The notes below the pieces were generated by a model. The model ran no database searches, had not been told where the DNA came from, and saw only the letters and a program-made list of their open reading frames with translations. A program made the position numbers and the translations under genes. A DNA stretch of 47,944 nt from a virus, in the IMG/VR virus record IMGVR_UViG_3300005471_000006, positions 1-47,944 of that record; one strand, 5' to 3'. Of the stretch, positions 16,577 to 38,996 are shown in pieces; the stretch's first letter is position 1, and each line of letters starts with the position of its first letter.

Positions 16577-17630
16577 GGAGCGCATGGGGCCGAAGCAGTG
16601 CAAGCCGCCGACGCTCACGCCGGCCTACGTTGCGCTGTACCCGCATCTGTGCGAGGTAGCCCGGCAGCACGGGTACGCGCTGGCCATCCACGGCAGCGTC
16701 GCGCGAGACATGGACCTGGTGGCCGTGCCGTGGACCGATGAAGCGTCCGATTCGTGGACGTTGCGGGACGCCATCGTGGCGCGGCTGCGCATCGCCAATC
16801 CGCACGACCGCAACGTCATCGGCGCGACCGAGCAGAGCTGCAAGCCACACGGCCGCATCGCTTGGGCGATCACGCTTGGCAACGGCGCAGTGCTGGACCT
16901 GTCGGTGGCCACGTTCATTCACGCCAAGCCCGCCACCCCGCCCGCCGCGCCCATCGCCGCGCAGCACGAGTTCTGCCAACACGTCGAGTCAGCTGGCCGC
17001 AACGTCATCGGCGCCAAGGTGTGCGGCAAGCCGATGCCGTGCTGGATGCACGGCAAGGCCATCGCCGCGCAGCACGAGGCGCGGGAGGGCTGTGACGAGG
17101 CTGACGCGCTGGCCGTCGCGCTGTTCCACCCCGACAACGATGCAGCTTGCGACAAGGCGCTGCGCGGCATTGATCTCGTCTGCCACCACGGGCCGGGCTG
17201 CGTGCATCCGGAGATTGCCGGGCCGCATCGGGCGAGGGCGATGTCCCGTGCGGTGCTGCGCAATCGCGTGGCCGTCGCAGTCCGCAAGGCCGTCCGCGCA
17301 GCCGAGGAGCGCGTGCGGGCGGAGTGCGAGGCGGAGAAGTCGAAGGCCGTGGCCGATCAGTGCGCCCTCTGCGACGGCCATGTGGACGAGATGCGGGCCG
17401 AGCGCGACTCGTGGCGCAGGACGTGCGAGAAGCTGACCGGCGAGCGCGACTCCGCCACGGCCGAGCTTGCGCGCGCGCTGCTGGCGCTGGCCGAGGCGGC
17501 GCGGGCCGCATGCGAGGCCGTGGACCGCTGCACCCTCTACGGCCCAGCCGACCAAGCCCGCGAGAAGCTGGCGGCCCTGCGCGCGCTCGTCGCTACCCTA
17601 GACCCACCCACACCGGAGACATCCCCATGA
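16563..17630 (+). CDS. Conserved phage protein with nucleotidyltransferase-like N-terminus (355 aa)
   Basis: The N-terminal ~110 residues contain YALAIHGSVARDMDLVAVPW, a GSxxRDxD pattern reminiscent of the nucleotidyltransferase (MNT) active site and conserved in many phage proteins. The middle has several Cys/His clusters (EFCQHVE, VCGKPMPCWMH, VCHHGPGCVH). The C-terminal third is a long coiled coil (RAAEERVRAECEAEKSK... to about residue 320). The start is uncertain: GTG 16563 has GGAGG 6 nt upstream, while ATG 16557 and 16584 are alternatives. The enzymatic reading is inference; a degenerate, non-catalytic domain is equally possible. Confidence 0.7.
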   Translation: MEIGEERMGPKQCKPPTLTPAYVALYPHLCEVARQHGYALAIHGSVARDMDLVAVPWTDEASDSWTLRDAIVARLRIANPHDRNVIGATEQSCKPHGRIAWAITLGNGAVLDLSVATFIHAKPATPPAAPIAAQHEFCQHVESAGRNVIGAKVCGKPMPCWMHGKAIAAQHEAREGCDEADALAVALFHPDNDAACDKALRGIDLVCHHGPGCVHPEIAGPHRARAMSRAVLRNRVAVAVRKAVRAAEERVRAECEAEKSKAVADQCALCDGHVDEMRAERDSWRRTCEKLTGERDSATAELARALLALAEAARAACEAVDRCTLYGPADQAREKLAALRALVATLDPPTPETSP

Positions 17631-18523
17631 TCGTCGTCAGCAATCACAACGCGAAGTGGCGCGCCCATTTCGAGGCGCAGGTCACGAACGGCCCGGCGCC
17701 CGGCCGCGCCATCCTCGCGTCCATGGGCAAGTATTGGGCGCACCAGAAGGCCACCGTCGCGGCCGACCTGCTCGACTGCCGCGCGAAGTGCCAGACGGCG
17801 TTCATCTGGTTCCGGCCGGAGAAGGAGGACTTCACCAACGGGCTCACGATGGCGGCGCTGCCGAACGATCCGGCCATCAAGGAACTCAACGCGCTGCTGG
17901 CCGTCCACGGCGCGCCGGTCGTGCTGCACCTGCTGTCCGAGTTCGCGCAGTACAAGTCCTACGCGAACGCGACCGGCGCGGAGTTCTGCACGGCGTTCGA
18001 CGCCATCGCGGCGCAGATGCCGAACAACGTCATTTGCGAGGCGAGCATTGAGGGCAACCAGACGGTGGGCATGAAGATCCCGATCTGGGACTTGCCGTCG
18101 TGGCTCCCGAGCAAGGCGCGGCTGGTGGGTGTGGACGCCTTCGCGAAGGGCATGGAGCCGAACACGGCGGCGTACACGCTGAATACCGCCTGGGCGGATC
18201 TGGGCGCCGAGCGCGGGCTGCCGTGCGGGATCGCGGAGTCGGGGTTCAACCACGGCGACGTGACGGACCCGGCGCAGTTCAAGCCGGTCGTGTCGCGCGT
18301 GCTGAAGCTCGCGACGCGGATCAACGCGACGTACCTGACGTTCCTCAACAACGACTGGGGCGGCTACCCAGCGTGGGACTCGGGGCTGTTCACGTCGGAT
18401 CTGCCGGCGTGGGCCGGCTGCCCCGAGGGCGTCACGATGCTGCGCGACAAGCTCACCAAGAGCGGGGCGATGATGACGGCGCCAGCGGTCATTGGTGGGG
18501 TGAAGCCGCTGGTGACGCCATGA
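17627..18523 (+). CDS. GH26-like TIM-barrel glycosidase-like protein (298 aa)
   Basis: ATG 17627 overlaps the previous stop (ATGA). The pattern fits a clan-A (beta/alpha)8 glycosidase near GH26. Strand 4 reads VVLHLLSEFAQY with Glu105 as candidate acid/base, strand 6 LVGVDAFA, and strand 7 LPCGIAESGF with Glu204 as candidate nucleophile; then LTFLNNDWGGYPAWD near the C-terminus. The length suits a single barrel. No signal peptide is visible. A similar arrangement occurs inside the tail-tube B protein (33152-38329). Possible roles: capsule or cell-wall polysaccharide cleavage, an unusual endolysin, or sugar modification inside the cell. Fold call moderate, substrate unknown. Confidence 0.6.
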   Translation: MIVVSNHNAKWRAHFEAQVTNGPAPGRAILASMGKYWAHQKATVAADLLDCRAKCQTAFIWFRPEKEDFTNGLTMAALPNDPAIKELNALLAVHGAPVVLHLLSEFAQYKSYANATGAEFCTAFDAIAAQMPNNVICEASIEGNQTVGMKIPIWDLPSWLPSKARLVGVDAFAKGMEPNTAAYTLNTAWADLGAERGLPCGIAESGFNHGDVTDPAQFKPVVSRVLKLATRINATYLTFLNNDWGGYPAWDSGLFTSDLPAWAGCPEGVTMLRDKLTKSGAMMTAPAVIGGVKPLVTP

Positions 18524-18864: not shown

Positions 18865-19100
18865 GCAAGCTGACCGCCCTGTGCCTCGGGCTGCTCGTGA
18901 CGCTCGCCGTGCTTGCCGAACACGAGCGCCGCGCCGACCTCGCCAAGATGTACCAGTGGCCGGTCCCGCCGGTTGTGCCCGCCGTCGTGTGGCCGCCGCC
19001 GGACGTGCCGCCGGTCGTGCCGGAGGTGCCGTACATCCCGCGGGAGTATTACGAGCTGGACCCGGTGCATGTGCCGTTCCACGCGGATGAGATGCGATGA
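18861..19100 (+). CDS. Small Pro-rich secreted or membrane-anchored protein (79 aa)
   Basis: ATG 18861 overlaps the previous stop. A hydrophobic N-terminus (LTALCLGLLVTLAVLA) is a signal peptide or anchor. It is followed by a strikingly Pro/Val-rich stretch (PVPPVVPAVVWPPPDVPPVV) and an acidic tail. Such a layout recalls spanin or cell-envelope proteins, but no lipobox is present. Its neighbours are the two putative carbohydrate-active genes. Confidence 0.62.
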   Translation: MSKLTALCLGLLVTLAVLAEHERRADLAKMYQWPVPPVVPAVVWPPPDVPPVVPEVPYIPREYYELDPVHVPFHADEMR

Positions 19101-20143
19101 GCAACCAGTCTCAAGCCTTCGTGCATTCCTACCTCGGCCCGTCTGCTGACTGCCCGCCGACCGACGCCGTGCGCAAGCGCATGCGCGACATCGTGCTCGG
19201 CAAGGCCATCCCGAATCCGCTGGACGCTGGCGCGCAGTCCTCGCCCCGCAACGTACCGGGCAAGTGGCCGCACGCCTACGCGCTTGTCCACGGCGTGGTC
19301 ACGGCCAGCGAGATCGCGGACCGCTTCGGTGAGTGGGTCACGTTCGAGCGCGACAAGCGCGGGCTCGGCAGCGGCGGCCTCTACGCCAGCCCGCTCACGC
19401 ACGTCTACAAATGCACGCATTTCACCGTGACGCAGCACTGGATGATCGGCGCGCTGTCCACGCATCCAGGCGAGCCGGTCCTCTCGCGCACACAGGCGAT
19501 GGAACTCCGGCACCTGATCCTCGGGGACAGCGTGATGGAGCCCGGCTTCGTCGGACCGTCGCGTGCGCTCGGGTGGAGCGGCGACGGGCTCATACTCGAC
19601 TACCTCGCGACGCAGGACCCCGACGCGGCCTCGGCTGCGACGGTGCTGGCGATGCGGCTCTCGCCCGATGGCTGCGATGTGGGCGTGCCGTGGAGCTGGA
19701 AGAACCCGAACGCCGTGAAGGACCCGAACCACCTGTACGAGTGCTCGGCGTGGATGGACGGCACCAACCTGCGGCCGGCCTCCGCGCTCTACAGGCTCAC
19801 CGGCGACGCCGCGATCCGTGACCGGCTCATCCATCTGCTGGCGTGCCTCGCGTACTGCCAGAAGGACGATGGCGGGTTCCACGACGACTGGCAGCCCGGC
19901 AAGCCCGGTGTGTTCCACGACGCGCCCGGCGAGAGCACGGAGCTGTTCATCTGGCCGGGGCTGCACGAGGCGAAGGCCGCGCTGGACGACGAGTGGCCGG
20001 CGTGGGCGGAGACCATGCTCAACGGATGCAAGGGACGGTACATGGCGCTCAACCGCTTCCGGCCAGGCGACACGGGCTTTACCGACTTCACGACGATGGG
20101 GATCGCCATCGCGTGCGCGCCGGCTTGGGGCTGGCGCAGCTAG
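19097..20143 (+). CDS. Large protein of unknown function, helical-hairpin repeats (348 aa)
   Basis: Last gene of the plus-strand operon; its start overlaps the previous stop. Long helical pairs with aromatic loops (GLILDYLATQDPDAASAATVL, IRDRLIHLLACLAYCQKDDG, ELFIWPGLHEAKAALDDEWP) and conserved-looking HxxxxxY, WMDG and DDGGFHDDW motifs suggest an alpha/alpha-toroid such as polysaccharide lyases or hydrolases use. I do not recognise a named family. Together with the TIM-barrel protein three genes upstream it could form a saccharide-processing set. Its TAG shares a CTAG palindrome with the stop of the convergent gene. Confidence 0.75.
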   Translation: MSNQSQAFVHSYLGPSADCPPTDAVRKRMRDIVLGKAIPNPLDAGAQSSPRNVPGKWPHAYALVHGVVTASEIADRFGEWVTFERDKRGLGSGGLYASPLTHVYKCTHFTVTQHWMIGALSTHPGEPVLSRTQAMELRHLILGDSVMEPGFVGPSRALGWSGDGLILDYLATQDPDAASAATVLAMRLSPDGCDVGVPWSWKNPNAVKDPNHLYECSAWMDGTNLRPASALYRLTGDAAIRDRLIHLLACLAYCQKDDGGFHDDWQPGKPGVFHDAPGESTELFIWPGLHEAKAALDDEWPAWAETMLNGCKGRYMALNRFRPGDTGFTDFTTMGIAIACAPAWGWRS

Positions 20144-24066: not shown

Positions 24067-24908
24067 GTGACCGCGTTCACAAAGACCGAGCCGGAGAGCG
24101 GCGCGATGCCGGCGTGCTTGATCCACAGGCTGCGCGTCTCGACCAAGTTGGCCTCGCGCAGCGGCACGTCCCATGAGGAGTAGGCCGGCACGTAGCCGTG
24201 CGCGTTGCCGCCGTCCGCGCTGTAGATGACGGCTTGGTCGGTGGCGTTGAGGACGGTGATGATCTTGGCCGGCGCGGTGAGCGCCAGCACGAGCGTGAAC
24301 GTGGACGCGACCGAGCCGAATGCGAGCGTGCCAGCGCCGTAGCCGCACTGGACCGCATCCGGCAAGCTAACGCGCCCCTGCACCGTGACCGGCACGCCCT
24401 TGTCCACGCCCTCGATGGGCAGGCCGCCCTTGCCGCCCAGCTTGTCCGGCAACTGGTCGCTGTACGTCTTGGCCTTGCCGCTGACGGCGACGGTGCCGCT
24501 GATCTGCGGCGTGCCGGCCAGCGCGACGACGCCCGTGATGGCCGGCATGCTCGTCACGCCCACGGACGCGCCGGCAGCGAGTGCGACGGGATCGGTGAGC
24601 CCGACCTTGCCCATGACGGTGACGGGCACGCCGCGATCCACGCCCTCGATCTGCATGCCGCCGCCCGGGCCGAGGGTGGCCGGCAACTGCTCACTGCTGA
24701 CCGTGTTGCCCACGTCCTCCGTCAGCGTCACCGGAACCGGCTCGCCCGTGGACGAGCCCTCGATCACGATGCCGGACCCCCGCCCGCGCGCCGTGTCGAT
24801 GCGCTCCGTCGCCTCGGCCGTCCGGCGCGTGTTCCGCTCGATCGGGTCGAAGCGGTTGCGCCAGAACTCCATCGCCTTCTTCGTGAACTGGAGGAGGGAG
24901 TTGGTCAT
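24063..24908 (-). CDS. Probable fibre/decoration protein with internal repeats (281 aa)
   Basis: ATG 24908 overlaps the stop of the giant ejection protein. The helical N-terminus (MTNSLLQFTKKAMEFWRN) may attach to the virion. The middle contains two diverged copies of IEGVDxGVPVTVxGxV with preceding QLPxxLG (encoded at 24615-24689 and 24381-24454), and a third partial copy EPVPVTL. The C-terminal ~100 residues form a beta domain (TLVLALTAPAKIITVLNATDQ). The build resembles baseplate or fibre proteins. Confidence 0.66.
   Translation of the reverse strand: MTNSLLQFTKKAMEFWRNRFDPIERNTRRTAEATERIDTARGRGSGIVIEGSSTGEPVPVTLTEDVGNTVSSEQLPATLGPGGGMQIEGVDRGVPVTVMGKVGLTDPVALAAGASVGVTSMPAITGVVALAGTPQISGTVAVSGKAKTYSDQLPDKLGGKGGLPIEGVDKGVPVTVQGRVSLPDAVQCGYGAGTLAFGSVASTFTLVLALTAPAKIITVLNATDQAVIYSADGGNAHGYVPAYSSWDVPLREANLVETRSLWIKHAGIAPLSGSVFVNAVT
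24381..24454. repeat. Imperfect repeat, copy A (pair with 24615-24689)
   Basis: About 74 bp coding for QLPDKLGGKGGLPIEGVDKG and following residues is closely similar to 24615-24689, which encodes QLPATLGPGGGMQIEGVDRG. The similarity is both nucleotide and protein level, indicating internal duplication within the fibre-like gene. Confidence 0.6.
24615..24689. repeat. Imperfect repeat, copy B (pair with 24381-24454)
   Basis: Second copy of the duplicated module in the fibre-like gene. Shared blocks include CACGCCCTCGAT and GGCAACTG. Divergence is mostly in the linker around Gly-rich residues. Confidence 0.6.
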
Positions 24909-27900
24909 CGGATGCGCCTCGGCGGGCCGGTCACGATCGCCGCCGGACTTGCGCGGCCCTCCATCGCGCGCTCCAAGCCGCGCCACATCTCGATCGCCTG
25001 CGCCGTGGGCAGCCACGCGACCGTGCCGACGAGCGACGTCATCGCCTGCAAGTCGCGCTCGCTGATCTGCCCATCGTCGATGCCACGGACCGCGTGCCCG
25101 AAGTCACCGATCACCGACAGGCTGCCGGGCCCGCCGTAGTTGTCGTACCGCGCTGCCGCCACAAGGTCGCGCGCCCACGCCACGCCGCCCGCGAGGTTCG
25201 CCGCCGCGTCCTTCGCCGTGGACCACCAGAACGGATCGGTATTGTCGTCGTCGCGGACGAAGCGGTTGTACGCCTGCTGCACGGCCGCCGGCACGCCGAA
25301 CAGGATCACGGCCGTCGCGCCCAGCCGCACGAGGCCGGCCGCGCTCTTGTCGGTCATGTTCGCGCGGCGCACGCCGAGGTTGATCGTGCGATTGAGGAAG
25401 CCCATGAACAGGGTCATGTACTTGTGGTCGCGCATGATCGCCGGCACGTCGGCGGGGAAGCCCGATCCCTGATAGTCCTTGACCGCCTGCTCCGCGATGC
25501 GGACGGCGTCCACGGCGGAGTGCCCCTCGGCCAGCGCCTTGCGCTTGGCGACGCGGTAGGTCGGCAGGTCCACCCACAACTGGACCGCCGCCATCGGCAT
25601 CATCGGCAACTCGCGCAGCTTGCCGGTGTCGAATCGCTTGTTGAGCGTGGCGCGGATGTCGATCTGCTCGCGGCTGGCGGCCACGCCGCGCGTCTCCATC
25701 GTTGACGACTCGGCCCACATCTCGCGCACGGCGGCACCGAAGCCGGACGGGTCGAGCGAGAGTTGCGCGGCTTCCTTCAGGACTTCGGGGCCCAGCCCCT
25801 CGACGCTGTTGGCGAGGCCGGTTGCGTTGAGCACCTGCGTCCCGACCTTGAAGCCGAGCTTGGCGATGATCGTGCCGGTGCGGAGGTAGTTGGCGAGTTG
25901 CTCGCCGCTGGACTGGCGCTTGAGGTGCCCGCCCGCGAGCGCGGCCATCGCGTCCTTGAACTGGTCGTAGACTTCCTGCCCGTGGCGCTCAATGATGGCC
26001 TTCTGCACGGCGCTCTGGCGCAGGACGTAGTTGATGTCGTACAGCCGCTCGGTCAGAGCCAGCGCCGTCGCGGCCTCGCCAGCGCCCTCCATGACGACGC
26101 CGAAGTCGTAGCGAAGCTCCCGCGTCACGTTCTGCTGCCGCTCGAATCGAGCGCCGAGACGGACCGTGGAGCGGACGGCGGCGCCGCGCGCTAGGTCGCC
26201 AGCGATCTCCTCAACCGTCTGCTGGGCCGCGCGCTCACCGAAGTGCTTGATCTTGGAGTAGCCGCCCGACAGGTCCAGCGTCTCGCCGGCATCGGTCGTG
26301 ATCGTGAACGGCAGCGCCTCGACCTTCGGCGGGACCACGCCGTAGTTGCGCTGCATGTGGTCCTTCAACTCGGGCCACGACTCGTTGCTGAACCGCCACG
26401 TCTCGTTCAGCCAGTGCGCGTCGGCGGCCGTCATCGTGCGCTTGATGGCGTCGATCTCGGACTCGCTGAACGTGTTGCGGTTCTGCTGCCGGCCGCTCTC
26501 GTGCCCTTCGTACAGCACGACCATCAAGCGGTTCTCGTGCGACAGCGGGCGCGAGACGCCCTTCACGGGCTGCTTGCTGCCCATCGTGGCCTTCTCGCGC
26601 GCGCTGAACTCCGCGAAGGCCGGCTTCCACGACTTGTTCATCGCCACGCGGCGCTGCTCAAGATCGGCCTCGCCTTCGTTGCGCGGGAACAGGATGGCCT
26701 TCGCCAGCGGCCCGCCAGGCCCGCCGTCGATCTCGAACACGTAGCGGTCGATGGGCGAATGCTCGGCGGCGAACTTCTGCGGCCACGTCGGCTTGCCTTG
26801 GAACTCGCGGTCCGGCTTCGGGTGGCTGGCCTCGACCTGCGCCGTGACGGTCGCGGCGCGGTCCAGCAGGTTGTCCGTCGCGCCCTTCGCGTGCGCGTTG
26901 CTGCGGTCGCGGCCGATCTCGTACATGGACTCAACCGAGACGCGGAGGTCGTGGAGTTGGTCGCCGGTGAGCTTGGTCCAGTCGTTCGCGCGCTCGGCCT
27001 TGATCCACTCGGCCACGAAGGGGATGAACACGTTGCCGTCCGTGCCGGCTTGCTTTTCGAGGTCCGCGAGCCAGTCGGCAATCGGCTTGGTCTCGGCCGC
27101 CTCGTCGGGCCGGATGGAGCCGAGTCCGAAGCGCGCGGCGAGCATGTTGACCTGATTGCGCCACTCGCCGCCGGCCTTGCCGAGCGCAACCTGCCGGCCC
27201 TCGGACCGCGGGGCGATGATGGCGCGCGTGTCCTTACCCGCCTGCGTCACCGTGCGGACCGCCTCGCGGTGGATCTCGCTTTGCACGAGCGCGTTGCCGA
27301 GCGCCTGCGCGGCCTCAAGGTGGTCGCCAACGCGCGCGCGGTCGCGTGCCATGGTGCGGGCCTTGCGCTCGGCCTGCCGGTACTTGTACGGCTTGATCTC
27401 GCCCACGGGCATGGCTGCGATCTTGTCGTCGGCGACGGTGCGGGCCTCGGCCTGCGTGGGGATGGCGTCGTAGGCGGCGCGGCGCTGGGCCTCCTCGGCG
27501 GCGGCCTTGACCTTCTCGGCGCCCACGGCTGCCTTGACCGCCGGCTGCGCCTTGCGGTCCAGCCCCTTGAGCGCCTTGATCTCCGCTTCCGTGATCTTGC
27601 CGCGATCCGTCTCGGCCACGGCGCGGCGGGCCTCGGCGCGCTTGCGCTCGGGGTCGAGGTAGAGGTCGGGGTGCTCGGTCGCGAGCCGGCGGCGCGCGGC
27701 AGCGTCGATGACTTCCTCGCGTCCGGCGGTGAGCGTGTTGAGCAAGTCGCCCGCGGACGGGAAGCCGAACACCTCGGCGGCGGCCTGCGCGGACAGGCCC
27801 TCGTCGGCCACGACGCCGGACTTCTCCAGCGCGGCGACGGTGTCCTTGTCGTACTCCGCGGCCAGCGTGGCGCGGTCGAGCTTGATGTCATCGTGCAACC

Positions 27901-30900
27901 GCGCCCACGCGACGCCGGCCGGCGACTCGTCATAGCGGCGGGCTTCCTCGGCGGTGAGGTTGGCCAGCGTGGCGGCCTTGCGCTCGCGCTGCTCGCTCTT
28001 GAGGTCGGCCATGACCTTGCGGGTCATCTTCTCGCGCGCCGCGTCGCCGGCCTCCGCGATGAGCTTCTGGTTCGCGTCCCACAGCGCGAGCGCGGCGTGG
28101 TCGTTCTTCGTCTCGGCTGCGACTTCCTCGCGCGTCATCACGGGCTGCCCGCCGTGCTCCGCTTCGGCGGCGGCGATCTCCGCGTCGGTGGCGAGCATGC
28201 GGTCGAAGACATCGCGCAACTCGGGATTGAGCTTGTCCACGCCGATGTGCGCGCGGATCGCCTCGTATACGCGGAGCATGATGTCGCGCATCGTCGCGAA
28301 GGCGCGCCGCAGCGCGGGACTCGGCGCCTCACCCTTGAACAGGTAGGCGACGAAGGCGTCCGCGATGTCCTCGTGCCGCCCGATAGTCAGGTCTGAGGCA
28401 TACTTGTCAGCGCCCGTCGCCTGCTTCAGGTCGGCCCACATTTGGCGCAGCCCTTCGGGGGCCTCCTTGTCAGCAGCGAGTGTGCGGATGACATCGACCA
28501 TCCAGTGAGCCGACTCGTGCAGCGCCGTTGTCGCGTTCGCCGTCTCGAACATGTGGGCCACGCGGTGCAGGAGCGAATAGGCCCCATGCTCGCCCTGCCG
28601 CATCGCGCCGGCGGGCGCCGCCGACTTGGCAAACCTCACCATGAGCGCGTCCCACTTCGCCGCCGGCACCTCGGGGAAGCGGGCCTTCATCGTCTGCACG
28701 AAGCCGGACAGGATGCGGGCGACGGCGCGGGCTTCCTTGGCCGGCCGGCCGGCTGACCTGACCGCAGCTTCCAGCTTGGCCGTCAGCTTCGCCGTCTCGG
28801 TCTGGCTGCCGGCCTGCCGGTCGCGGATGTCGGCCAGCTCGCGTAGCGTCGCCGCGGTGCCGGCGGGGTCGCGGGCGGCGGACTGAGCAAGCGGCTCGGT
28901 GATGGCAGCGAGGACAGGTGCGCTACCACCACCGGCCGGCGCGTTGGGCGCTCCAGTCGCCCTCTCGGGCGGCGGGCTCAGGATACCCCGCACCGCCTCC
29001 GCAGCGGGAGCCGCTTCCTTGCCCAGCAGCCGCCCGACCACGCCGGGGGCGGCGGGGGCGGCCTCGATGGCGTCGGCAACGGCGCGGAGGGTGTCGCCGG
29101 GCTGTGACCCAGCGGTGATTTTCTGATCATTCTCCGATGATCCCGGCTTCGCTTCCTCAGCCGGCGCCGCTTCACCCTCCGGGCGCGCCGCCTGAAACAG
29201 CAGGTCCGCCCCCTCGGGCACGCCGAGCTTGGCGGTCAGCACGGCCGCCCGAGACTCGTCCTCCGCCGCCTGCACGGGGTCCGGCTCGGCCACCGGCTCG
29301 GCAGCCGCGGCTTCCTCAGCCGCCTTCTGGCGGGCCTTGGCCGACTCCTGCGCCTCGGTCAGCGTCAGCCCGCCCGGCCGGACCGTCGCGTGCTCCAGTA
29401 GGGCGTCCGCGATGGGGTCGTCCGGCAGGACCGCCATGGCCCGCTCGTACGGCACCTCCACCACGCCCGTCCGTGCGGCCTCCTCGTAGGCTCTGCGGCC
29501 TCCGGACAGCCGCTCGGCCTCCACGGCCGGCACGCGCCCGGCGCCCACCACAGCCGCGTCAAAGCCCTCCCGGTTGATGTAGACCGTCGGCACCTCGGCG
29601 CCCTCGGCCTGCGAGCGGACCAGCGCCTCGAACCGCTCCTGGTTCCGCGTCCGTACCTTGGTCTCGCCGGCCGCCTTGACGGCCTCGGTCAGTTGGGCGT
29701 GGTCGGCCACGGCCAGCACCTCGGCCATGCGGGCCTCGTGCTCCACGAACCGGGCCGCCTCGGCGTGCTGGGCCGCCCCGACCGCCCCGTGGACCACGAA
29801 CGGCAGCGCCGCGCCGGCCGCACCGGCGATCTCGGACCCGATCTCGGCCCCCGTCGGCAGCTTGCCCGTGGCCGTGGCCGTCCCGGCGAGGTTCGCCGCC
29901 GCCATGGCGCCAGTCTGGACGGCCATCTCCTTGGCCGCCGCGCCGACCGTCACGCCGCCGGCCTTCTCGAACGCCGCCCCCGGCGGGAACAGCCCTTGCA
30001 GCGCCATGAGGACGCCCGCGTTGACCGCGCCGCCCTTGAAGGCCGCCGCCCGGACGCGGGCCACCTTCTCGGGGTCGCGGAGGAACGCCGCCACAGCCTT
30101 GGGGTCGGTCAGGTCCACTTCGGACCCCAGCAGGCTGCTCGCCAGCCCGCCCGCGCTCGTGATCCCCAGCCCCGTGAACAGGCCCAGCCGGGCCCCAACC
30201 ACCGCCGCGTGCGCCTCGACCAGCCCGCCCGCCGTCCCGAACACCGGCGCCAGCGGGCCCGAGACGGCCGCCAGCCCCTCCAGTGTGCCGGCCAGCGGCG
30301 CCCCCGCCGCGGCGCCCGTCGCCCCGCCAGCGAACGAGCCCGCGATGGCCGGCGCGATGCCGACCAGCCCGCGCGTCGCGTCGAAGGCGTAGCCCTTGAT
30401 GCCCTCCGGCCGCAGCCCGCCCACGGCACGGCGGGCCTTCTCGGCGGTCGTGATCCCGTCCGCCGCCCAGTCCGGCGGCTGGTTGAGCACGATGGCCGCC
30501 AGCACGCGCGTGCCCACGTCGGCATCCATCACGCCCGCAGCGATGCCGGGCCCGAGGATCGCTTGGCGGGCTTCCTTGTGCCCGCCGATGGCCCGCTCGA
30601 CCGCCGCGAGCCGGCTCACGTCGTCGTGCGCGATGGCCGCGTTGTGCGGGTCGGTGAGCCACGCCGGCAGGTGCCGCGTCTGGCGCAGCGCCACGTCGGC
30701 GCCGTTGGCCACGTCCGTCGCCTGCTGCGGGCGGGCCCGGAGCGCAGCCGCGGCGGCTTCCGGAGCGGTGCCGAGCTTGTCGGCCAGCTTGAGCGCGGTC
30801 GCGTGCTGGTCGGGGTTCGTGGTCCCCATGACGCCGATGGCCGCGCTCGCACGGGCGCGCGCGATGGCCAGCGGATCGTCGATGTTGTCAGTGCCCGGCA

Positions 30901-30901
30901 T
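24905..30901 (-). CDS. Giant internal virion/ejection protein, T7 gp16-like position, with HExxH motif (1998 aa)
   Basis: Third of three consecutive genes that match the T7 internal core order (gp14, gp15, gp16). Likely released into the cell at infection. The N-terminal ~330 residues include long Gly/Ala-rich hydrophobic segments (FAGGATGAAAGAPLAG and others) that could cross membranes. Around residues 525-720 there is an Ala/Pro/Glu-rich linker. LHESAHWMVDVI at residues 794-805 gives an HExxH zinc-protease motif (H795, E796, H799). Long charged coiled coils follow to about 1300, then a segment with SRPLSHENRLMVVL and EGHESGRQQNRNTFS, and a conserved-looking helical C-terminus. This resembles large polyvalent proteins of phages. 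No lytic transglycosylase motif was identified. ATG 30901 overlaps the preceding stop by 14 bp. Confidence 0.78.
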   Translation of the reverse strand: MPGTDNIDDPLAIARARASAAIGVMGTTNPDQHATALKLADKLGTAPEAAAAALRARPQQATDVANGADVALRQTRHLPAWLTDPHNAAIAHDDVSRLAAVERAIGGHKEARQAILGPGIAAGVMDADVGTRVLAAIVLNQPPDWAADGITTAEKARRAVGGLRPEGIKGYAFDATRGLVGIAPAIAGSFAGGATGAAAGAPLAGTLEGLAAVSGPLAPVFGTAGGLVEAHAAVVGARLGLFTGLGITSAGGLASSLLGSEVDLTDPKAVAAFLRDPEKVARVRAAAFKGGAVNAGVLMALQGLFPPGAAFEKAGGVTVGAAAKEMAVQTGAMAAANLAGTATATGKLPTGAEIGSEIAGAAGAALPFVVHGAVGAAQHAEAARFVEHEARMAEVLAVADHAQLTEAVKAAGETKVRTRNQERFEALVRSQAEGAEVPTVYINREGFDAAVVGAGRVPAVEAERLSGGRRAYEEAARTGVVEVPYERAMAVLPDDPIADALLEHATVRPGGLTLTEAQESAKARQKAAEEAAAAEPVAEPDPVQAAEDESRAAVLTAKLGVPEGADLLFQAARPEGEAAPAEEAKPGSSENDQKITAGSQPGDTLRAVADAIEAAPAAPGVVGRLLGKEAAPAAEAVRGILSPPPERATGAPNAPAGGGSAPVLAAITEPLAQSAARDPAGTAATLRELADIRDRQAGSQTETAKLTAKLEAAVRSAGRPAKEARAVARILSGFVQTMKARFPEVPAAKWDALMVRFAKSAAPAGAMRQGEHGAYSLLHRVAHMFETANATTALHESAHWMVDVIRTLAADKEAPEGLRQMWADLKQATGADKYASDLTIGRHEDIADAFVAYLFKGEAPSPALRRAFATMRDIMLRVYEAIRAHIGVDKLNPELRDVFDRMLATDAEIAAAEAEHGGQPVMTREEVAAETKNDHAALALWDANQKLIAEAGDAAREKMTRKVMADLKSEQRERKAATLANLTAEEARRYDESPAGVAWARLHDDIKLDRATLAAEYDKDTVAALEKSGVVADEGLSAQAAAEVFGFPSAGDLLNTLTAGREEVIDAAARRRLATEHPDLYLDPERKRAEARRAVAETDRGKITEAEIKALKGLDRKAQPAVKAAVGAEKVKAAAEEAQRRAAYDAIPTQAEARTVADDKIAAMPVGEIKPYKYRQAERKARTMARDRARVGDHLEAAQALGNALVQSEIHREAVRTVTQAGKDTRAIIAPRSEGRQVALGKAGGEWRNQVNMLAARFGLGSIRPDEAAETKPIADWLADLEKQAGTDGNVFIPFVAEWIKAERANDWTKLTGDQLHDLRVSVESMYEIGRDRSNAHAKGATDNLLDRAATVTAQVEASHPKPDREFQGKPTWPQKFAAEHSPIDRYVFEIDGGPGGPLAKAILFPRNEGEADLEQRRVAMNKSWKPAFAEFSAREKATMGSKQPVKGVSRPLSHENRLMVVLYEGHESGRQQNRNTFSESEIDAIKRTMTAADAHWLNETWRFSNESWPELKDHMQRNYGVVPPKVEALPFTITTDAGETLDLSGGYSKIKHFGERAAQQTVEEIAGDLARGAAVRSTVRLGARFERQQNVTRELRYDFGVVMEGAGEAATALALTERLYDINYVLRQSAVQKAIIERHGQEVYDQFKDAMAALAGGHLKRQSSGEQLANYLRTGTIIAKLGFKVGTQVLNATGLANSVEGLGPEVLKEAAQLSLDPSGFGAAVREMWAESSTMETRGVAASREQIDIRATLNKRFDTGKLRELPMMPMAAVQLWVDLPTYRVAKRKALAEGHSAVDAVRIAEQAVKDYQGSGFPADVPAIMRDHKYMTLFMGFLNRTINLGVRRANMTDKSAAGLVRLGATAVILFGVPAAVQQAYNRFVRDDDNTDPFWWSTAKDAAANLAGGVAWARDLVAAARYDNYGGPGSLSVIGDFGHAVRGIDDGQISERDLQAMTSLVGTVAWLPTAQAIEMWRGLERAMEGRASPAAIVTGPPRRIR

Positions 30902-32680: not shown

Positions 32681-33151
32681 TCAGTACCCTCCGGAGAACG
32701 TGCCGTAAGCCTGCCCCGCCTCGCCGAGCAAGCTGCCCAGCGCCGCCTGCGTGCCGGACTTCTTCGCAAGGTCCGACTGGTACTCGAACGCCTGCGCCCG
32801 CTGCCGGTAGCCGAACACCTCGTTCGCCGTGTTGACCCTGATCTGCGCCACGTCCAGCGCGCCGATCCGCGCGGTGTCAGCCGCTACCTCGGCCGGCGTG
32901 CCCGAGTCCAGCGCCAGCCCCGCGCCCGCGTACGCCGCGCGCTGGCTGCCAATGATCTGCCCGATGTGCTGCTTCAACTGCTGCTCGTCGATGGCGCCCC
33001 GCCGCTGCGCGTCATTCGCCTGATACCGCGCCATCTGGGCGTTGTTCGCCTCGATGGCCGCGTTCGCCTCGCCCGCCTGCTTGGCAGCCCCCGCGCCCAG
33101 CAGACTGCCAGCCACCTGCGCGCCCAGCGCCAGCTCCAAGCCGGTACACAT
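32681..33151 (-). CDS. Internal virion protein, T7 gp14-like (156 aa)
   Basis: Begins MCTGLELALGAQVAGSLLGAGAA, a Gly/Ala-rich hydrophobic N-terminus after MC. A long Gln/Ala helix follows (NAQMARYQANDAQRRGAIDE), then SQRAAYAGAGLALDSGTPAE, a block found in gp14-type core proteins across podoviruses. The length is slightly short of T7 gp14. It is ejected into the host outer membrane in T7; the same role is inferred here. Confidence 0.8.
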   Translation of the reverse strand: MCTGLELALGAQVAGSLLGAGAAKQAGEANAAIEANNAQMARYQANDAQRRGAIDEQQLKQHIGQIIGSQRAAYAGAGLALDSGTPAEVAADTARIGALDVAQIRVNTANEVFGYRQRAQAFEYQSDLAKKSGTQAALGSLLGEAGQAYGTFSGGY

Positions 33152-36100
33152 CTACACCTCCGCCCTCGGGTACAGGCCCTCCACCAGCATCGGCAGCGGG
33201 TCCGTCTGCCGGATCACGATAGACGACTTCAGCTTGCTGCTGCTCCGCATCTTGCACGTCGCCTTGCCCGAGAACAGCGCCACCGGGTCGCTCGTCAGCA
33301 CCGGCGTCTCGCGCATCGGCACCAGCACGCCCCCGTCGCTCGGGCCGAACTTCGCCCCGCGCGTCCGGTGGACGATGGCCGTCACCTCCGCAGGCCGCAC
33401 CATCTTGCCCGCGATCTTGCCGTCGGGCACGTCGAGGTCCAGCGTCTCGATCTCGGCCGAGATGTAGATGCCGAACTGGATGATTCCGAGCGGCTTCTGG
33501 AAGAACACCGCCCCGTTCGCCACCGCCACAGTCGGCTGCCGGATGCCGTCGCCCAGCACGTTGAGGATGCGGCCCTCCAGCCGCGACAGGCCGGTGTAGG
33601 TCCGGACCATCTTGGTCCAGACCGTCGCCGCGATGCCCGCCGCCAGCCGGTCGGTGCAGTCCTGCTGGAACTCGACCGTCACCTGCGACGTGCTCGTGAA
33701 GCCGGTCACGAACACCTCGACCGTGTCGCCCGTCACGGGGTCCGTGAGCCGGTAGCCCGTCAGGCCCACGTCCACCGCCGCGCTCGTGAACAGCGCGAGG
33801 TGTGCGTTGGTCGCCAGCGTGGCGCTCGTGCCCGCGAGGTACGTGCTGCCGCCCGTGAGCGTCAGCGTGATGTCCAGTGCCGGGTCGATGATCGGATGCA
33901 GCCACTCCGGGTGCTCGCTGTTCCGCCCGTCCCACGTCAGGCCCGAGTCCACGAAGAACGAATCCAGCGACTCGTCGTAGTCCGTCTCCTCGCCGGCCTT
34001 GCGCGGGCGCATGCGCTCGATGTTGCGCACCGTCGTCGGCCCCGTCGTCTCGGCCGACAGCCCCTGATTCGTGCGCCAGTCTTTGAGCAGCGAGAGCCCG
34101 TCGGCCGTGAGCCAGTGCCCCTCGCGCACGAACGCCAGCCACTTCGCGAGGAAGAACTTGTTGCTGCCGAGGTAGGCGTTGAGCCAGAACGTCGGGCTGC
34201 CCGCGTAGCCCGTGAAGCTGTAGTCGTAGCCGAGGTAGCGGACCATCTTCACGATGGGGTAGCGGGCGAGGAAGTCCAGCCACGGCCCCATCCAGATGCG
34301 CCACATGTTCGCGGCGCTGGCCTCGGCCAGATCATCGTCCTCGCCGCCGTTGTCCTCGTCCGGCAGCAGGTCGGGGATCTGCGAGCCGGCAGCGACCGTC
34401 TCACCGAAAAACACCGGCTTGTTGCGGCCCTCCGCGAACTCCAGCAGCGACACGAGCGAGAGGTTCTTCGGAGTGCCCTCTTGGAACTCCGCGGCGTCGA
34501 ACGGGTCGATGCCGATCCAGTCCACCGACGCGTCGCCCGGATACCAGAGCGACCAGTCCGTGACGGTCGGGGACGGCAGCACGCTCCAGCACGTCGCGAC
34601 CTTGTTGAAGCTGCTGGCCGTCTGCGCGTTGGCGATGGACCGGACGTAGAGCCGCGCCGCCGCGAAAGCCGCGGGGAAGTCGTCGCGGTGGTAGCCCTGC
34701 GAGACGAGGTTCGCTTCGCCCGCGAACAGCAGCATCACGGGCTTGTTGTACTTGCCCAGCGCCACGCCCAGCGCCGCGAGCTGCGCGAGGATGCCCGCGT
34801 ACTGGTCGGCCGGCGCCGCGTCCGCGATGATCGTGTCCACGCCGACGTTCGGGAACTGCACTTGGTCGATGAGCGTCGCGTGCATCTGCGCAAGCTGGCC
34901 GTTCGCGTCGGACGCCTGCAAGTCCGCCAGAATCTCCGCCTCGGACAGCGTCATCGACCAGTAGTTGATATCGCCCGTCACGACGGTGAAGTCCATGATC
35001 TGGCTGGCCGGCACCGTGATCGTGGACGTGCCCTGCAACTGGAACGAGACGCCCGCGACCACGTTGATGGCCGTGAAGACCTTGGCCTCCAGCGTCGCCT
35101 CGAACGTCGCTTGCACAGCGCCGGCCGTCTTGGTGACGTCCACCACGAGGATCTTCGTGCCGCTCGCCGGGGGCGTCGCGGTCGTGACGAGGATGTTCAG
35201 GTTGGCGCCGCCCACGCCAGCCCCCGCGCCGCCAGAGAGCGCCTTGTCGAAGTACGCCGTGCCCAGCGTGCCGGGCCATGACGGCAGCGTGCCGCGGCGG
35301 CGGAAGTCCGCCTGCTGCGTCGCCGGCACGGTGATGCCCGACGTGCCGGCCAGCGTGAACGATACGCCCGCGTTCTCGGTCGCGACGAGGTAGAAGTGGC
35401 CCTCAAGCAGCGCCTCGAACACCAAGTCCGGTGCCCCCGCGCTCGGGTCCACGTCGATGATCTCGATCCACGAGCCGACGGGGTAGGTCGTCGCGCTCGT
35501 GATGGTGATGTTGACGCCCGCGCCGCCGGACAGCGCTTTGTTCAGGATGGTCGTGCCCGGCGCACCGTAGGCCGGCTCGCCGTGCGACGCCGACGTGGCG
35601 CCGATGTTCAGGATCGCGCCCGCCGTGGCCGGCGCGCTCACGATGTTGCCGGCCTTGATGAAGACAGGCCGGTGAGTCGCCGGCACCGTGATCCCGCTCG
35701 TGCTGGCGAGCTCGAAGTGCTGGCTCGCCTTGCCCGTCACCGTGAACGTCTGGCCGAGCAACGCATCCCTGAAGACGCCGTTCGGCTGCGTCGCGCCGGT
35801 CATCACACCGTTCAGCGCCGTGCCGATGAAGCCGTCGGCGTTGGCCACCCAGACGTTCGTGCAGACGACGGAGTCGCCGTTCTCGACCGCCGGCAGGAAC
35901 GAGTTGACCTGCACGTTGCCGCTGCCCGACGCGGTGGTCGCGTCCGCCGTGGACGGGATGAACGCGTGGATGCTGTTCTGGTGCAGCGCGCGGATGGCCA
36001 GGTTATCGGCCGCGAAGTACCCGAGGCCCATCATCACGTAGCCGTCCGGCGGCTCGTACTTCGCGGCGTACTTGTAGACCGGGTTGATCGTGCGGTTCAC

Positions 36101-38329
36101 GACGGCGTACAGCGCGTCACCGTCCGGCCCGGACTCCACGGCCACGGACTCGAACCCCGCGTCGTCGCCGGTGTAGAAGCTCTTGCCCGTGTCGTGCGTA
36201 TGCCACGCGGCGATCTCCTGCTCGCGCACGTAGGTGTTGGCGATGAGGATGCCGTCGCTGCGCACGGCCCAGAGGATGCTGTGCGGGAGGCGCTGGTAGG
36301 CCCACTGCGTCAGGCTGAAGCCGTCCACGAGCGCCGGGGCGTAGGTGGTGAGGTCGCGGCCCTTCTGGAACTCCACGAGGTCGGAGCGGAAGTCGCGCAC
36401 CGTCGCGCAGCGGCTCTGCACGAACAGCGCCGCGTCGTCGATCACGATGGGCGTGACGCCGGCCGACCCCACGCGCCCGCGCAGCTTGGCGCGCACCTGC
36501 TGCGGGATCAGCGTGCCGTCCGCGTCGCCCTCGATGAAGTAGAAGGCGTGATTGGACATCGCCACCAGCGCGTCGCCAATGGTCAGCAGGTGCCGAAGCT
36601 CCTGCGCCCCAACGATGGTGCCCGTGATCGAGTCGTCGTCCTTGAAGGGCGAGCTGTGCGTGAAGTTGAGGAAGTCCCCGACCTTGGACATCCAGAAGTC
36701 GGCGGGCTTCTCATTCGTGGCGGCGAACGCGAGGCGCTGGTCGTGCAGCCCGACCGCCGCAGGGAACTTGTCCGTCCCGCGGAACGGGTTGTAGTAGCGC
36801 GGGGGCGTGTCGGACGTGTCGGCGCCGTCGCCCACCACGCTGGTGACGTTCGGGTCGCTCCACGTCACGAGGCCGCTGGTCGCGTCCACCTCTGTGACCG
36901 TCGCGACGTAGCCGAACACGCCGTTCGACTTCCTGTAGACGTAGTATTTCTCGGCTTCGGGAACGACGTCCCACGTCAGGTTGACCGTGGGCGACGTCGT
37001 ACCGTGGTTGATCGTGACGGCCGTCGCCGTGAAGTAGATCGTCCCGACGTCCGTGGTCCAGTTGATGCCGTCGCTGTTGTCGAGGTGGAACGAGTTGGCC
37101 CCGACCACCGAGACGGTGTAGGTCTTGCCGACGATGGCGGCGAACGCCTCGGCCGTGGTCGTGGACGTGGCGAACACGATGAGGATCTCGTCGCCTGTCG
37201 TGAGCCCGTGCGCGGTCGCGCCGATGAGCGCGTCATCGGCCGCCGTGCCCGTCGTTGTGCCCGAGTCGAGCGTGCTGGACAGCGCCACGAAGTCGGCCGC
37301 GTAGCCCGCCGGCACGGTGATCCCGGTCGTGCCCGACAGGTCGAACGTGTTGGCCGTCACCACCGACAGCGTGAACGCTTTGTTCAGCAGCGCCGCCTCG
37401 AACGTCGGGTTGAGCGAGCCCGTCAGCGGGTAGACGCGAATGCAGATGATCGTCGTGCCGTTGGAAATGCCGTAGGCCGTGGACGTGATGCGCACGTCCG
37501 AGCCAGAGCCGCCGGTGATCGTGCCGGTGCTATTGGTCGTCGCCGCGACGCCGCCCGGCAGCGACTCCTCGAACGTGTCGCGCTTGACCGCCGTGACCTT
37601 GTAGGCGTCGATGGTGCCGGTGCCCGTGCCGCCCTTGGTCGCCGCCAGGTTCAGCGGCCCGTCGATGGGCGGCGCGAAGTCGATGGCCTTCATGGTCCAC
37701 GTCGTCGCAGCCGTGCGCCGCAGCTCGTAGGGCGGGTGCGTCGGGTGCGCGCACCACGTCACGTCGCCGGACTGCGCGAAGCGCACGTCGAACACCTCCG
37801 TCGTGCGGTACGGCGAAGGGATCTCGAAGATGCCCGCCGCGTCGGCCGCAGGCGTGGTGACGACGCCTTCCAGCGCCAGCCACGTCACGGGATTCGTCGG
37901 CACGAGCGGCGGCGTGCCCACCTGCGCGATGCAGCAGTAGTAGACCAGCGTGACACCGGAGTCCGTCTCCCGCACGAGATCGCCCACGTTGTAGAACTTC
38001 GTGATGTCCCACTGGGCCGTGAGCCCGTCCGTCACAATCCGCCCGCCGTCCTGCCAGAGCCGGATGTAGAAGTCGCCCAGCTCCATGATGTAGCGGTCGT
38101 CGTCGTCGAACGACCACTCCGCGAGCCGCGGGGGCTTGGTCGAGTCCTTGACCGTGCCGAGGTACTCGAACCCGCTGCGGTTCGCGGCGGCGCCGGAGCG
38201 CATCACGAAGACGTTGTTCAGCTTGCGGGCGCTGATGAAGTAGCGCTCGGTGTCGCTGCGCGCGTCGAGCACGGCCGACAGCACGCCGCCCGCGAAGCTG
38301 TGGACGGTGAGGTCGAGAGGCTTACCCAT
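33152..38329 (-). CDS. Tail tube B (nozzle) protein with inserted GH26-like glycosidase domain (1725 aa)
   Basis: Tail nozzle homologue by order (after tail tube A, before gp14-like) and by its N-terminus LTVHSFAGGVLSAVLDARSD and FVMRSGAAANRSGFEYLG, which is usual for podovirus tubular B proteins. It is about twice the T7 gp12 length. Extra parts: about five beta modules with xxFxLxGTSGITVPA-like motifs, and a domain at about residues 1120-1400 with the layout of a GH26-type barrel. That domain shows MLLFAGEANLV (Glu1205, candidate acid/base), YHRDDFPAAFAAARLYVRSI, VDWIGIDPFDA and KPVFFGETVAAG (Glu1310, candidate nucleophile). It probably degrades surface polysaccharide during adsorption. Catalysis is inferred, not shown. 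Overlaps the previous stop by 8 bp. Confidence 0.82.
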   Translation of the reverse strand: MGKPLDLTVHSFAGGVLSAVLDARSDTERYFISARKLNNVFVMRSGAAANRSGFEYLGTVKDSTKPPRLAEWSFDDDDRYIMELGDFYIRLWQDGGRIVTDGLTAQWDITKFYNVGDLVRETDSGVTLVYYCCIAQVGTPPLVPTNPVTWLALEGVVTTPAADAAGIFEIPSPYRTTEVFDVRFAQSGDVTWCAHPTHPPYELRRTAATTWTMKAIDFAPPIDGPLNLAATKGGTGTGTIDAYKVTAVKRDTFEESLPGGVAATTNSTGTITGGSGSDVRITSTAYGISNGTTIICIRVYPLTGSLNPTFEAALLNKAFTLSVVTANTFDLSGTTGITVPAGYAADFVALSSTLDSGTTTGTAADDALIGATAHGLTTGDEILIVFATSTTTAEAFAAIVGKTYTVSVVGANSFHLDNSDGINWTTDVGTIYFTATAVTINHGTTSPTVNLTWDVVPEAEKYYVYRKSNGVFGYVATVTEVDATSGLVTWSDPNVTSVVGDGADTSDTPPRYYNPFRGTDKFPAAVGLHDQRLAFAATNEKPADFWMSKVGDFLNFTHSSPFKDDDSITGTIVGAQELRHLLTIGDALVAMSNHAFYFIEGDADGTLIPQQVRAKLRGRVGSAGVTPIVIDDAALFVQSRCATVRDFRSDLVEFQKGRDLTTYAPALVDGFSLTQWAYQRLPHSILWAVRSDGILIANTYVREQEIAAWHTHDTGKSFYTGDDAGFESVAVESGPDGDALYAVVNRTINPVYKYAAKYEPPDGYVMMGLGYFAADNLAIRALHQNSIHAFIPSTADATTASGSGNVQVNSFLPAVENGDSVVCTNVWVANADGFIGTALNGVMTGATQPNGVFRDALLGQTFTVTGKASQHFELASTSGITVPATHRPVFIKAGNIVSAPATAGAILNIGATSASHGEPAYGAPGTTILNKALSGGAGVNITITSATTYPVGSWIEIIDVDPSAGAPDLVFEALLEGHFYLVATENAGVSFTLAGTSGITVPATQQADFRRRGTLPSWPGTLGTAYFDKALSGGAGAGVGGANLNILVTTATPPASGTKILVVDVTKTAGAVQATFEATLEAKVFTAINVVAGVSFQLQGTSTITVPASQIMDFTVVTGDINYWSMTLSEAEILADLQASDANGQLAQMHATLIDQVQFPNVGVDTIIADAAPADQYAGILAQLAALGVALGKYNKPVMLLFAGEANLVSQGYHRDDFPAAFAAARLYVRSIANAQTASSFNKVATCWSVLPSPTVTDWSLWYPGDASVDWIGIDPFDAAEFQEGTPKNLSLVSLLEFAEGRNKPVFFGETVAAGSQIPDLLPDEDNGGEDDDLAEASAANMWRIWMGPWLDFLARYPIVKMVRYLGYDYSFTGYAGSPTFWLNAYLGSNKFFLAKWLAFVREGHWLTADGLSLLKDWRTNQGLSAETTGPTTVRNIERMRPRKAGEETDYDESLDSFFVDSGLTWDGRNSEHPEWLHPIIDPALDITLTLTGGSTYLAGTSATLATNAHLALFTSAAVDVGLTGYRLTDPVTGDTVEVFVTGFTSTSQVTVEFQQDCTDRLAAGIAATVWTKMVRTYTGLSRLEGRILNVLGDGIRQPTVAVANGAVFFQKPLGIIQFGIYISAEIETLDLDVPDGKIAGKMVRPAEVTAIVHRTRGAKFGPSDGGVLVPMRETPVLTSDPVALFSGKATCKMRSSSKLKSSIVIRQTDPLPMLVEGLYPRAEV

Positions 38330-38996
38330 TCCGATGCGCCGTCACGAACGAATCGTCCGGGACCTCGTCACGCGCGTCCTCGTTCGCGTCCGAGCGCTGC
38401 GCACTCAGCAACTCAGCCCGGTACGCCTGCCACGCGTTCCCCTGCTTGCTCGCGTCCGCCCCGAGCCCCGGCGCCATCTCGAACGCCAGCAGCCACGCGA
38501 AGGCCGAGACGAACTTCGGATCGTCGCTGTAGAGCAGCGCGTTCGTGGCGTTGAACGTGTATTCCGCGATGGCCCCGCCGTCTTCGTCCACCGCGACGTT
38601 CGTGTAGATCGCGCGGTCGGCCGCGAACTGCTGAATCTCGAACGTGTTGGGCTTCGGGTTGTCGCGCGCCTCGCCCGGCAGCCGGACCGCGCGGATCAGC
38701 AGCGCGTCCGTCGGGTAGAGGTATTGATACCGCCAGCGGCCCGACCACACCTGGGTTCCGTCGTCCGTGTCGCGCAGGGTCATCTCGGCCATCTTCATCG
38801 CGAAGCCCCACGGGTAGTCCCGCAGCGCTCGCTCGCGGCACGGCGTGTAGAACGTCGTGACCTGCTGGCCCTCGATGCTGAACCTGTCCGAGTCGATGGT
38901 CGGGATGCCGCCGATGGTCGTGGTGCCCGAGATCGCGTTGGTGTTCCCCAGCCGCGCGAGGGCCATGTTCGCGATCTGGATCTCGGTCAGTGCCAT
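38322..38996 (-). CDS. Tail tube A (gatekeeper/adaptor) protein (224 aa)
   Basis: Typical start MALTEIQIANMALARLGNTN, then FYTPCRERALRDYPWGFA and YQYLYPTDALLIRAVRLPG, the core pattern of podovirus tail tubular protein A (T7 gp11 class). It sits between portal and nozzle in the assembled tail. Length is close to the family norm. It lies directly upstream of the nozzle gene and downstream of capsid genes, in the expected order. Confidence 0.88.
   Translation of the reverse strand: MALTEIQIANMALARLGNTNAISGTTTIGGIPTIDSDRFSIEGQQVTTFYTPCRERALRDYPWGFAMKMAEMTLRDTDDGTQVWSGRWRYQYLYPTDALLIRAVRLPGEARDNPKPNTFEIQQFAADRAIYTNVAVDEDGGAIAEYTFNATNALLYSDDPKFVSAFAWLLAFEMAPGLGADASKQGNAWQAYRAELLSAQRSDANEDARDEVPDDSFVTAHRNG

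Follow-up and report, generated by a model that had tools for sequence, protein, structure and literature searches.

A split GH26-type barrel predicted inside the T7-type tail nozzle protein of a short-tailed phage

Tail nozzles of the T7 type, such as gp12 of T7 and that of Cobetia phage Carin1, a marine podovirus (solved as PDB 8ck1), combine platform, propeller and fibre-dock parts, have a tail adaptor and an internal virion protein as neighbours, and carry no enzyme. In T7 the fibre dock sits externally and bridges the propeller end and the platform, and the axial tip arises from an insertion into a different blade, blade 3 (PMC6702177). For the SU10 nozzle, the accessible part of the published account describes additional beta domains placed between blades 2 and 3 of the propeller, with a fibre-dock loop that extends blade 1, and mentions no catalytic domain (PMC9509320).

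Virion depolymerases are usually sought in tailspikes and fibres. Carin1, the closest solved relative of the nozzle studied here, is itself reported to possess a separate tailspike depolymerase, Dpo31, which the accessible portion of the report presents as a spike protein of another fold, outside the nozzle chain (PMC13317679). Sugar hydrolysis has also been claimed for a tail-tube protein, the 'dual-function' tail tubular protein A of KP32, KP34 and phiYeO3-12; these proteins are adaptors, and the accessible parts of the papers report no GH26-type domain in them (PMC5440376, PMC5741709, PMC7060351). A literature search covering mainly papers outside subscription journals found no precedent for a nozzle or a tail terminator with a built-in glycosidase domain.

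The window analysed here is the whole 47,944-nucleotide stretch of IMG/VR record IMGVR_UViG_3300005471_000006; its source is a virus record, and it may therefore be a genome fragment. It encodes a nozzle that resembles those of T7 and Carin1 in its three structural parts and in its gene neighbours, and differs from them by about 680 extra residues at one turn. The extra residues contain a predicted GH26-type barrel, similar to the bacterial enzymes Xyl4 (2ddx) and AlXyn26A (7xjr/7xs3) in fold (Z 30), in the catalytic Glu pair and in the WYPGxxxVDW region. Xyl4 and AlXyn26A are secreted proteins with an unbroken barrel, whereas the barrel of the window is split, lies within a virion protein and has lost the Arg four residues before the first catalytic Glu. 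A tailspike depolymerase is a separate spike with an N-terminal anchor; here the putative enzyme is a TIM barrel within the nozzle chain, and the purpose it presumably shares with Dpo31 is virion-borne cutting of polysaccharide. Virion-borne depolymerases are already known as a type; what is new is the location in the nozzle and the nested architecture of a predicted enzyme. Taken as a whole, the locus is probably best explained as a hexamer-forming T7-type nozzle with an inserted, split GH26 glycoside hydrolase acting on host surface polysaccharide.

The nozzle gene and its insertion site

The nozzle gene, its neighbours and its two structural parts are as follows.

33152-38329, minus strand: tail nozzle gene (tail tubular protein B) with the embedded putative glycosidase, a single open frame of 1725 aa, assigned in PHROGs to phrog_376, a tail protein (E 7e-138), and matched in the PDB by the Carin1 nozzle 8ck1 (E 7e-72)
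38322-38996, minus strand: tail adaptor (tail tubular protein A), phrog_394, upstream neighbour of the nozzle gene
32681-33151, minus strand: internal virion protein, phrog_418, downstream neighbour of the nozzle gene
36080-38329, minus strand: N-terminal part and propeller of the nozzle, residues 1-750
33152-34033, minus strand: C-terminal fibre-dock and platform part of the nozzle, residues 1433-1725

The genes follow the order of a short-tailed phage: partial terminase, portal, major head protein, tail adaptor, the 1725-aa frame, internal virion proteins and a protein of 1998 aa. The last of these (24905-30901, minus strand; phrog_9880) carries an LPD22 domain and adjoins the internal virion proteins. 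No candidate for a large tailspike turned up in the genes that follow the internal virion proteins, in a record that may be incomplete. Homology to both platform and propeller, together with the position between adaptor and internal virion proteins, identifies the 1725-aa product as a predicted T7-type tail nozzle. Complete nozzle relatives in viral contigs measure 599-1058 aa, in agreement with a first-pass annotation of this DNA, which had described the tail-tube B protein as about twice the usual size. In Xanthomonas phage CP2 (L002, 1480-4583) and Pseudomonas phage UFJF_PfDIW6 (L007, 480-2949) the annotation divides the nozzle between two neighbouring frames.

The additional length is concentrated at a single point. 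The alignment to 8ck1 stops at chain residue 553 (residue 749 of the window protein) and resumes at 556 (residue 1433). Usual nozzles read YxxVxRTING-xTKRYIERM...FFVDCGLTYDGR across this point, that is, RTIN-G-xTKRYIERM without an insert; in the window protein RTIN is followed by about 680 residues (750-1430) and then by TTVRNIERM...FFVDSGLTWDGR. Propeller end and platform start lie 827 aa apart, against 20-235 aa in 149 relatives, all of them nozzles of viral contigs in which both ends could be read. None of the 149 has an insert of comparable size at the same site, their longest distances being 193-235 aa. By sequence comparison, one beta-turn between the propeller and the fibre-dock/platform part is replaced by an insert of about 680 aa, and the insertion point would be the turn of the hairpin at the propeller end.

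The corresponding region of T7 is external (PMC6702177), so the suggestion of the first-pass annotation that polysaccharide is cut on the tail axis is not supported. By analogy with T7, the GH26 insert would face outward on the nozzle.

The predicted split barrel and its presumed catalytic residues

The insert and the repeats related to it comprise the following features.

35948-36061, minus strand: strand 1 and helix 1 of the GH26 barrel, residues 757-794 (KYEPPDGYVMMG...), aligned with the start of free-standing relatives and with two viral relatives, L090 and L248
34979-35947, minus strand: beta-repeats I1-I3, residues 795-1117, located between helix 1 and strand 2 of the barrel, which they interrupt, and homologous to T1-T2
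34034-34978, minus strand: strands 2-8 of the GH26 barrel, residues 1118-1432
34715-34717, minus strand: codon of Glu1205, presumed acid/base at the end of strand 4, present in 27/27 relatives and aligned with the Glu of WAYE in 2ddx
34400-34402, minus strand: codon of Glu1310, presumed nucleophile at the end of strand 7, present in 27/27 relatives and aligned with AlXyn26A Glu243
37010-37546, minus strand: beta-repeats T1-T2 of about 90 aa each, residues 262-440, in the nozzle-tip region, seen by self-comparison and corresponding to a gap in other nozzles

Several lines of evidence point to the GH26 family. A phmmer search of the PDB with the whole protein retrieved the GH26 beta-1,3-xylanase 2ddx (E 1.7e-8); with the domain alone it retrieved 2ddx, Vibrio Xyl4, at E 3.4e-9 and the MLXase AlXyn26A (7xjr) at E 0.0016. 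A profile built from 11 bacterial relatives scored 101.9 bits over residues 1183-1409. In the AlphaFold2 model of residues 735-1495, confidence is high over most of the barrel and low over most of 788-1124. GH26 structures ranked highest in a Foldseek search with this model, and its structural alignment to AlXyn26A covers 292 residues at 2.5 A with Z 30.4, strands 1-2 relying on alignment guidance. The sequence similarity, the predicted (beta/alpha)8 barrel and the Glu residues at strands 4 and 7 are those of CAZy GH26, in its beta-1,3-xylanase/MLXase group, and the insert is accordingly assigned as a predicted GH26-type barrel closest to Xyl4 and AlXyn26A.

Standard profile searches did not flag the nozzle enzyme. 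Scanning the insert against Pfam, NCBIfam and PHROGs yielded no glycoside hydrolase assignment, and the Pfam GH26 model PF02156 stays below its cut-off on the nozzle protein while exceeding it on the relatives. A tblastn search of 50,697 phage records with the domain gave no match, plain-sequence scans of viral contigs found no copy of it, and a fold search of BFVD gave no match at E <= 0.001. Enzymes located in nozzles or tail terminators can likewise escape searches aimed at spikes.

The barrel appears to begin well before strands 2-8. A second AlphaFold2 model, made without alignment guidance over strands 1-2, kept the GH26 match and did not build these two strands; in it, residues 1125-1409 cover only AlXyn26A 72-326, and the equivalent of AlXyn26A 27-71 must therefore come from elsewhere. 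The approximately 45 missing residues correspond to strands 1 and 2 together with helix 1. Free-standing relatives start with a motif such as LLEPPDGYVYHG, and a similar motif, KYEPPDGYVMMG, stands at residue 757, the very start of the insert; only 6 of 2000 protein shuffles matched the start of the free-standing enzymes as well as residues 757-768 do. The first AlphaFold2 model places a strand at 765-772 and a helix at 777-790. This segment (YEPPDGYVMMG) lies some 330 residues upstream of the remaining barrel, and the intervening space is taken up by I1-I3, each of about 90 aa and up to 48% identical to T1-T2. The repeats have no counterpart in the free-standing relatives and end at MDFTVVTGD, just ahead of the position expected for strand 2. 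A complete (beta/alpha)8 barrel, split by three beta-repeats into 757-794 and 1118-1432, is thus the probable arrangement, judged from sequence and models.

L090 and the repeat boundary in L248 place strand 2 at about 1118-1125. The position 902-908 given by the first AlphaFold2 model was rejected as a probable alignment artefact, MAFFT having placed the strand 2 of the relatives there. The nozzle of a related Vibrio phage is annotated as 'FCCH domain', and the repeat of about 90 aa is common to the nozzle-tip region and the enzyme interior.

The claim that had motivated this work, a podovirus tail nozzle with an embedded GH26-type (beta/alpha)8 domain, is supported by the phmmer, profile and fold results, including the predicted TIM barrel with its two Glu at strands 4 and 7. 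The landmarks FAGEAN (Glu1205), WIGIDPFD and FFGETV (Glu1310) were found where the first-pass annotation had placed them, and the two Glu residues, proposed there as acid/base and nucleophile, align with the GH26 catalytic pair. The proposed limits of about 1120-1400 fall within strands 2-8 and are incomplete because the barrel is split, the first beta-alpha unit being at 757-794. Comparison with GH26 profiles is favourable for the profile of bacterial relatives and not for the Pfam model.

AlXyn26A Glu243, the counterpart of Glu1310, is the residue mutated in structure 7xs3. In the comparison with the 27 relatives, Trp1248, WYPGD, VDW, Phe1277, Pro1305 and Trp1346 prove conserved as well. The Arg at Glu1205-4, found in 27/27 relatives, is replaced by Leu in the window protein and by Ala in L090, and residues 1204, 1208, 1211 and 1370 deviate as well. 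Given these changes, the enzyme may be altered or weak. Both catalytic Glu are retained in the distant phage relative L090; because the pair survives in two divergent phage proteins, we take the loss of Arg to indicate altered specificity of the putative enzyme rather than loss of activity. Capsule or exopolysaccharide is a reasonable putative substrate.

Related arrangements and nested modules

L090 (IMGVR_UViG_3300044464_000110), an IMG/VR contig of an unrelated phage, encodes a fusion of 1917 aa based on a different tail protein. Its tail-terminator domains (phrog_179, 139.7 bits; Pfam PF13554, 63.6 bits) are followed by YEPPTGMVLYG, then by about 830 aa, and then by GH26 strands 2-8. The YEPP motif thus directly follows a structural domain, as it does in the window and in L248, and the barrel is split at the same place; the interrupting insert is a PcRGLX-like module, without the beta-repeats of the window. 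Within the fusion (L090 3051-8801), an N-terminal region reads like an alpha/beta-hydrolase (GGGSSAGG), and 'P22 coat protein 5' annotations are matched over short stretches. It reads like a structural protein with several enzyme-like modules.

Two further contigs, L248 and L263, were found through a DNA pattern for the YEPP motif. Both encode orthologous nozzles, 41% identical to that of the window over residues 8-1032, with an identical RTINP-Y-YEPP junction and with repeats I1 and I2; both contigs are truncated and end before the remaining barrel. In L248 repeat I3 contains a module of 835 aa that passes the Pfam threshold for the central domain of PcRGLX, an exo-rhamnogalacturonan-lyase-like family. 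The rest of I3 after the module is 63% identical to the window, where the corresponding site is empty:

35204-35227, minus strand: GAGVGGAN, residues 1035-1042 of I3, the site of the 835-aa PcRGLX-like module in L248, with no module here

The L248 module and the module inside the L090 barrel are 65% identical over 837 columns. This lies far above the identity between the nozzles of the window and L248, and is hard to explain without a fairly recent transfer of the module between nozzle and tail terminator. The site, empty in the window and filled in L248, with the same module present in L090, provides a natural series of nested insertions useful for studying the movement of catalytic modules between phage structural proteins. 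It seems to us an even call whether the split GH26-type barrel is a cassette that travels between unrelated tail structural proteins, the podovirus nozzle and the tail terminator of long-tailed phages. Such a cassette would take up further modules in the loop between helix 1 and strand 2, so that enzymes become nested (in L248, nozzle, then GH26, then beta-repeat, then PcRGLX-like lyase), and depolymerases would be built and swapped in tail-tube proteins without tailspikes. The motif YEPPTGMVWNG also occurs near the end of a 508-aa protein of another viral contig (L260, 549-2072, minus strand) without a GH26 match, by chance or in another use of the motif.

Alternative readings and the proposed mechanism

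The retained residues bear most directly on whether the barrel is an enzyme at all. A GH26 fold that keeps its cleft while serving as an inactive receptor- or glycan-binding arm on the nozzle would account for the substitution of the otherwise invariant Arg and the four other deviating positions, and the insertion lies close to where fibres dock in T7 (PMC6702177). We nevertheless consider it unlikely, as both catalytic Glu and the six further conserved elements listed above are in place, and both Glu also persist in L090. Even less probable is an enzyme limited to residues 1118-1432, a barrel without strand 1 preceded by an unrelated linker at 757-794: strand 1 was indeed not built by the unguided AlphaFold2 run, but the segment aligns with the N-terminal end of complete enzymes, recurs in both L090 and L248, and its omission leaves the fold short of about 45 AlXyn26A residues.

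The origin and use of the gene admit other readings too. GH26 genes are listed among the metabolic genes of soil viruses (PMC6460857, PMC10127799), and the enzyme might be carried for the breakdown of host biomass and not for entry; this is very improbable for a domain placed inside an essential virion protein without an obvious secretion signal, which would reach the host as a component of the virion. To an assembly or frame artefact joining a nozzle to a host glycosidase gene we give next to no credence. The full arrangement has been seen once, in a single metagenomic record; against this, the junction is identical in two other contigs, base composition is uniform over all parts of the gene (GC3 0.95-0.98), and the nozzle sequence resumes in frame at the homologous residue after the insert, which makes an assembly chimera unlikely.

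Under the preferred reading of a nozzle with an active split GH26 hydrolase, six copies of the barrel would surround the nozzle exterior of each virion, about where T7 fibres dock. They would hydrolyse host surface polysaccharide by a retaining two-Glu mechanism during the approach to the membrane, and the nozzle enzyme would do the job of a tailspike. The relatives suggest that phages may pass the enzyme cassette between unrelated tail proteins and nest further modules inside it. The system offers a direct test of a tail tube doing the work of a tailspike.

Two other frames of the window touch on glycosidases. A 348-aa frame at 19097-20140 (plus strand), without clear relatives and with no phage match, shows a below-threshold hint of GH127. 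A 298-aa frame at 17627-18520 (plus strand), with no match in the PDB, Pfam or phages, carries a second, very weak GH26-like pattern (6.6 bits) in which LLSEF and GIAESGF align with the two catalytic Glu, and is possibly a second glycosidase of the same phage.
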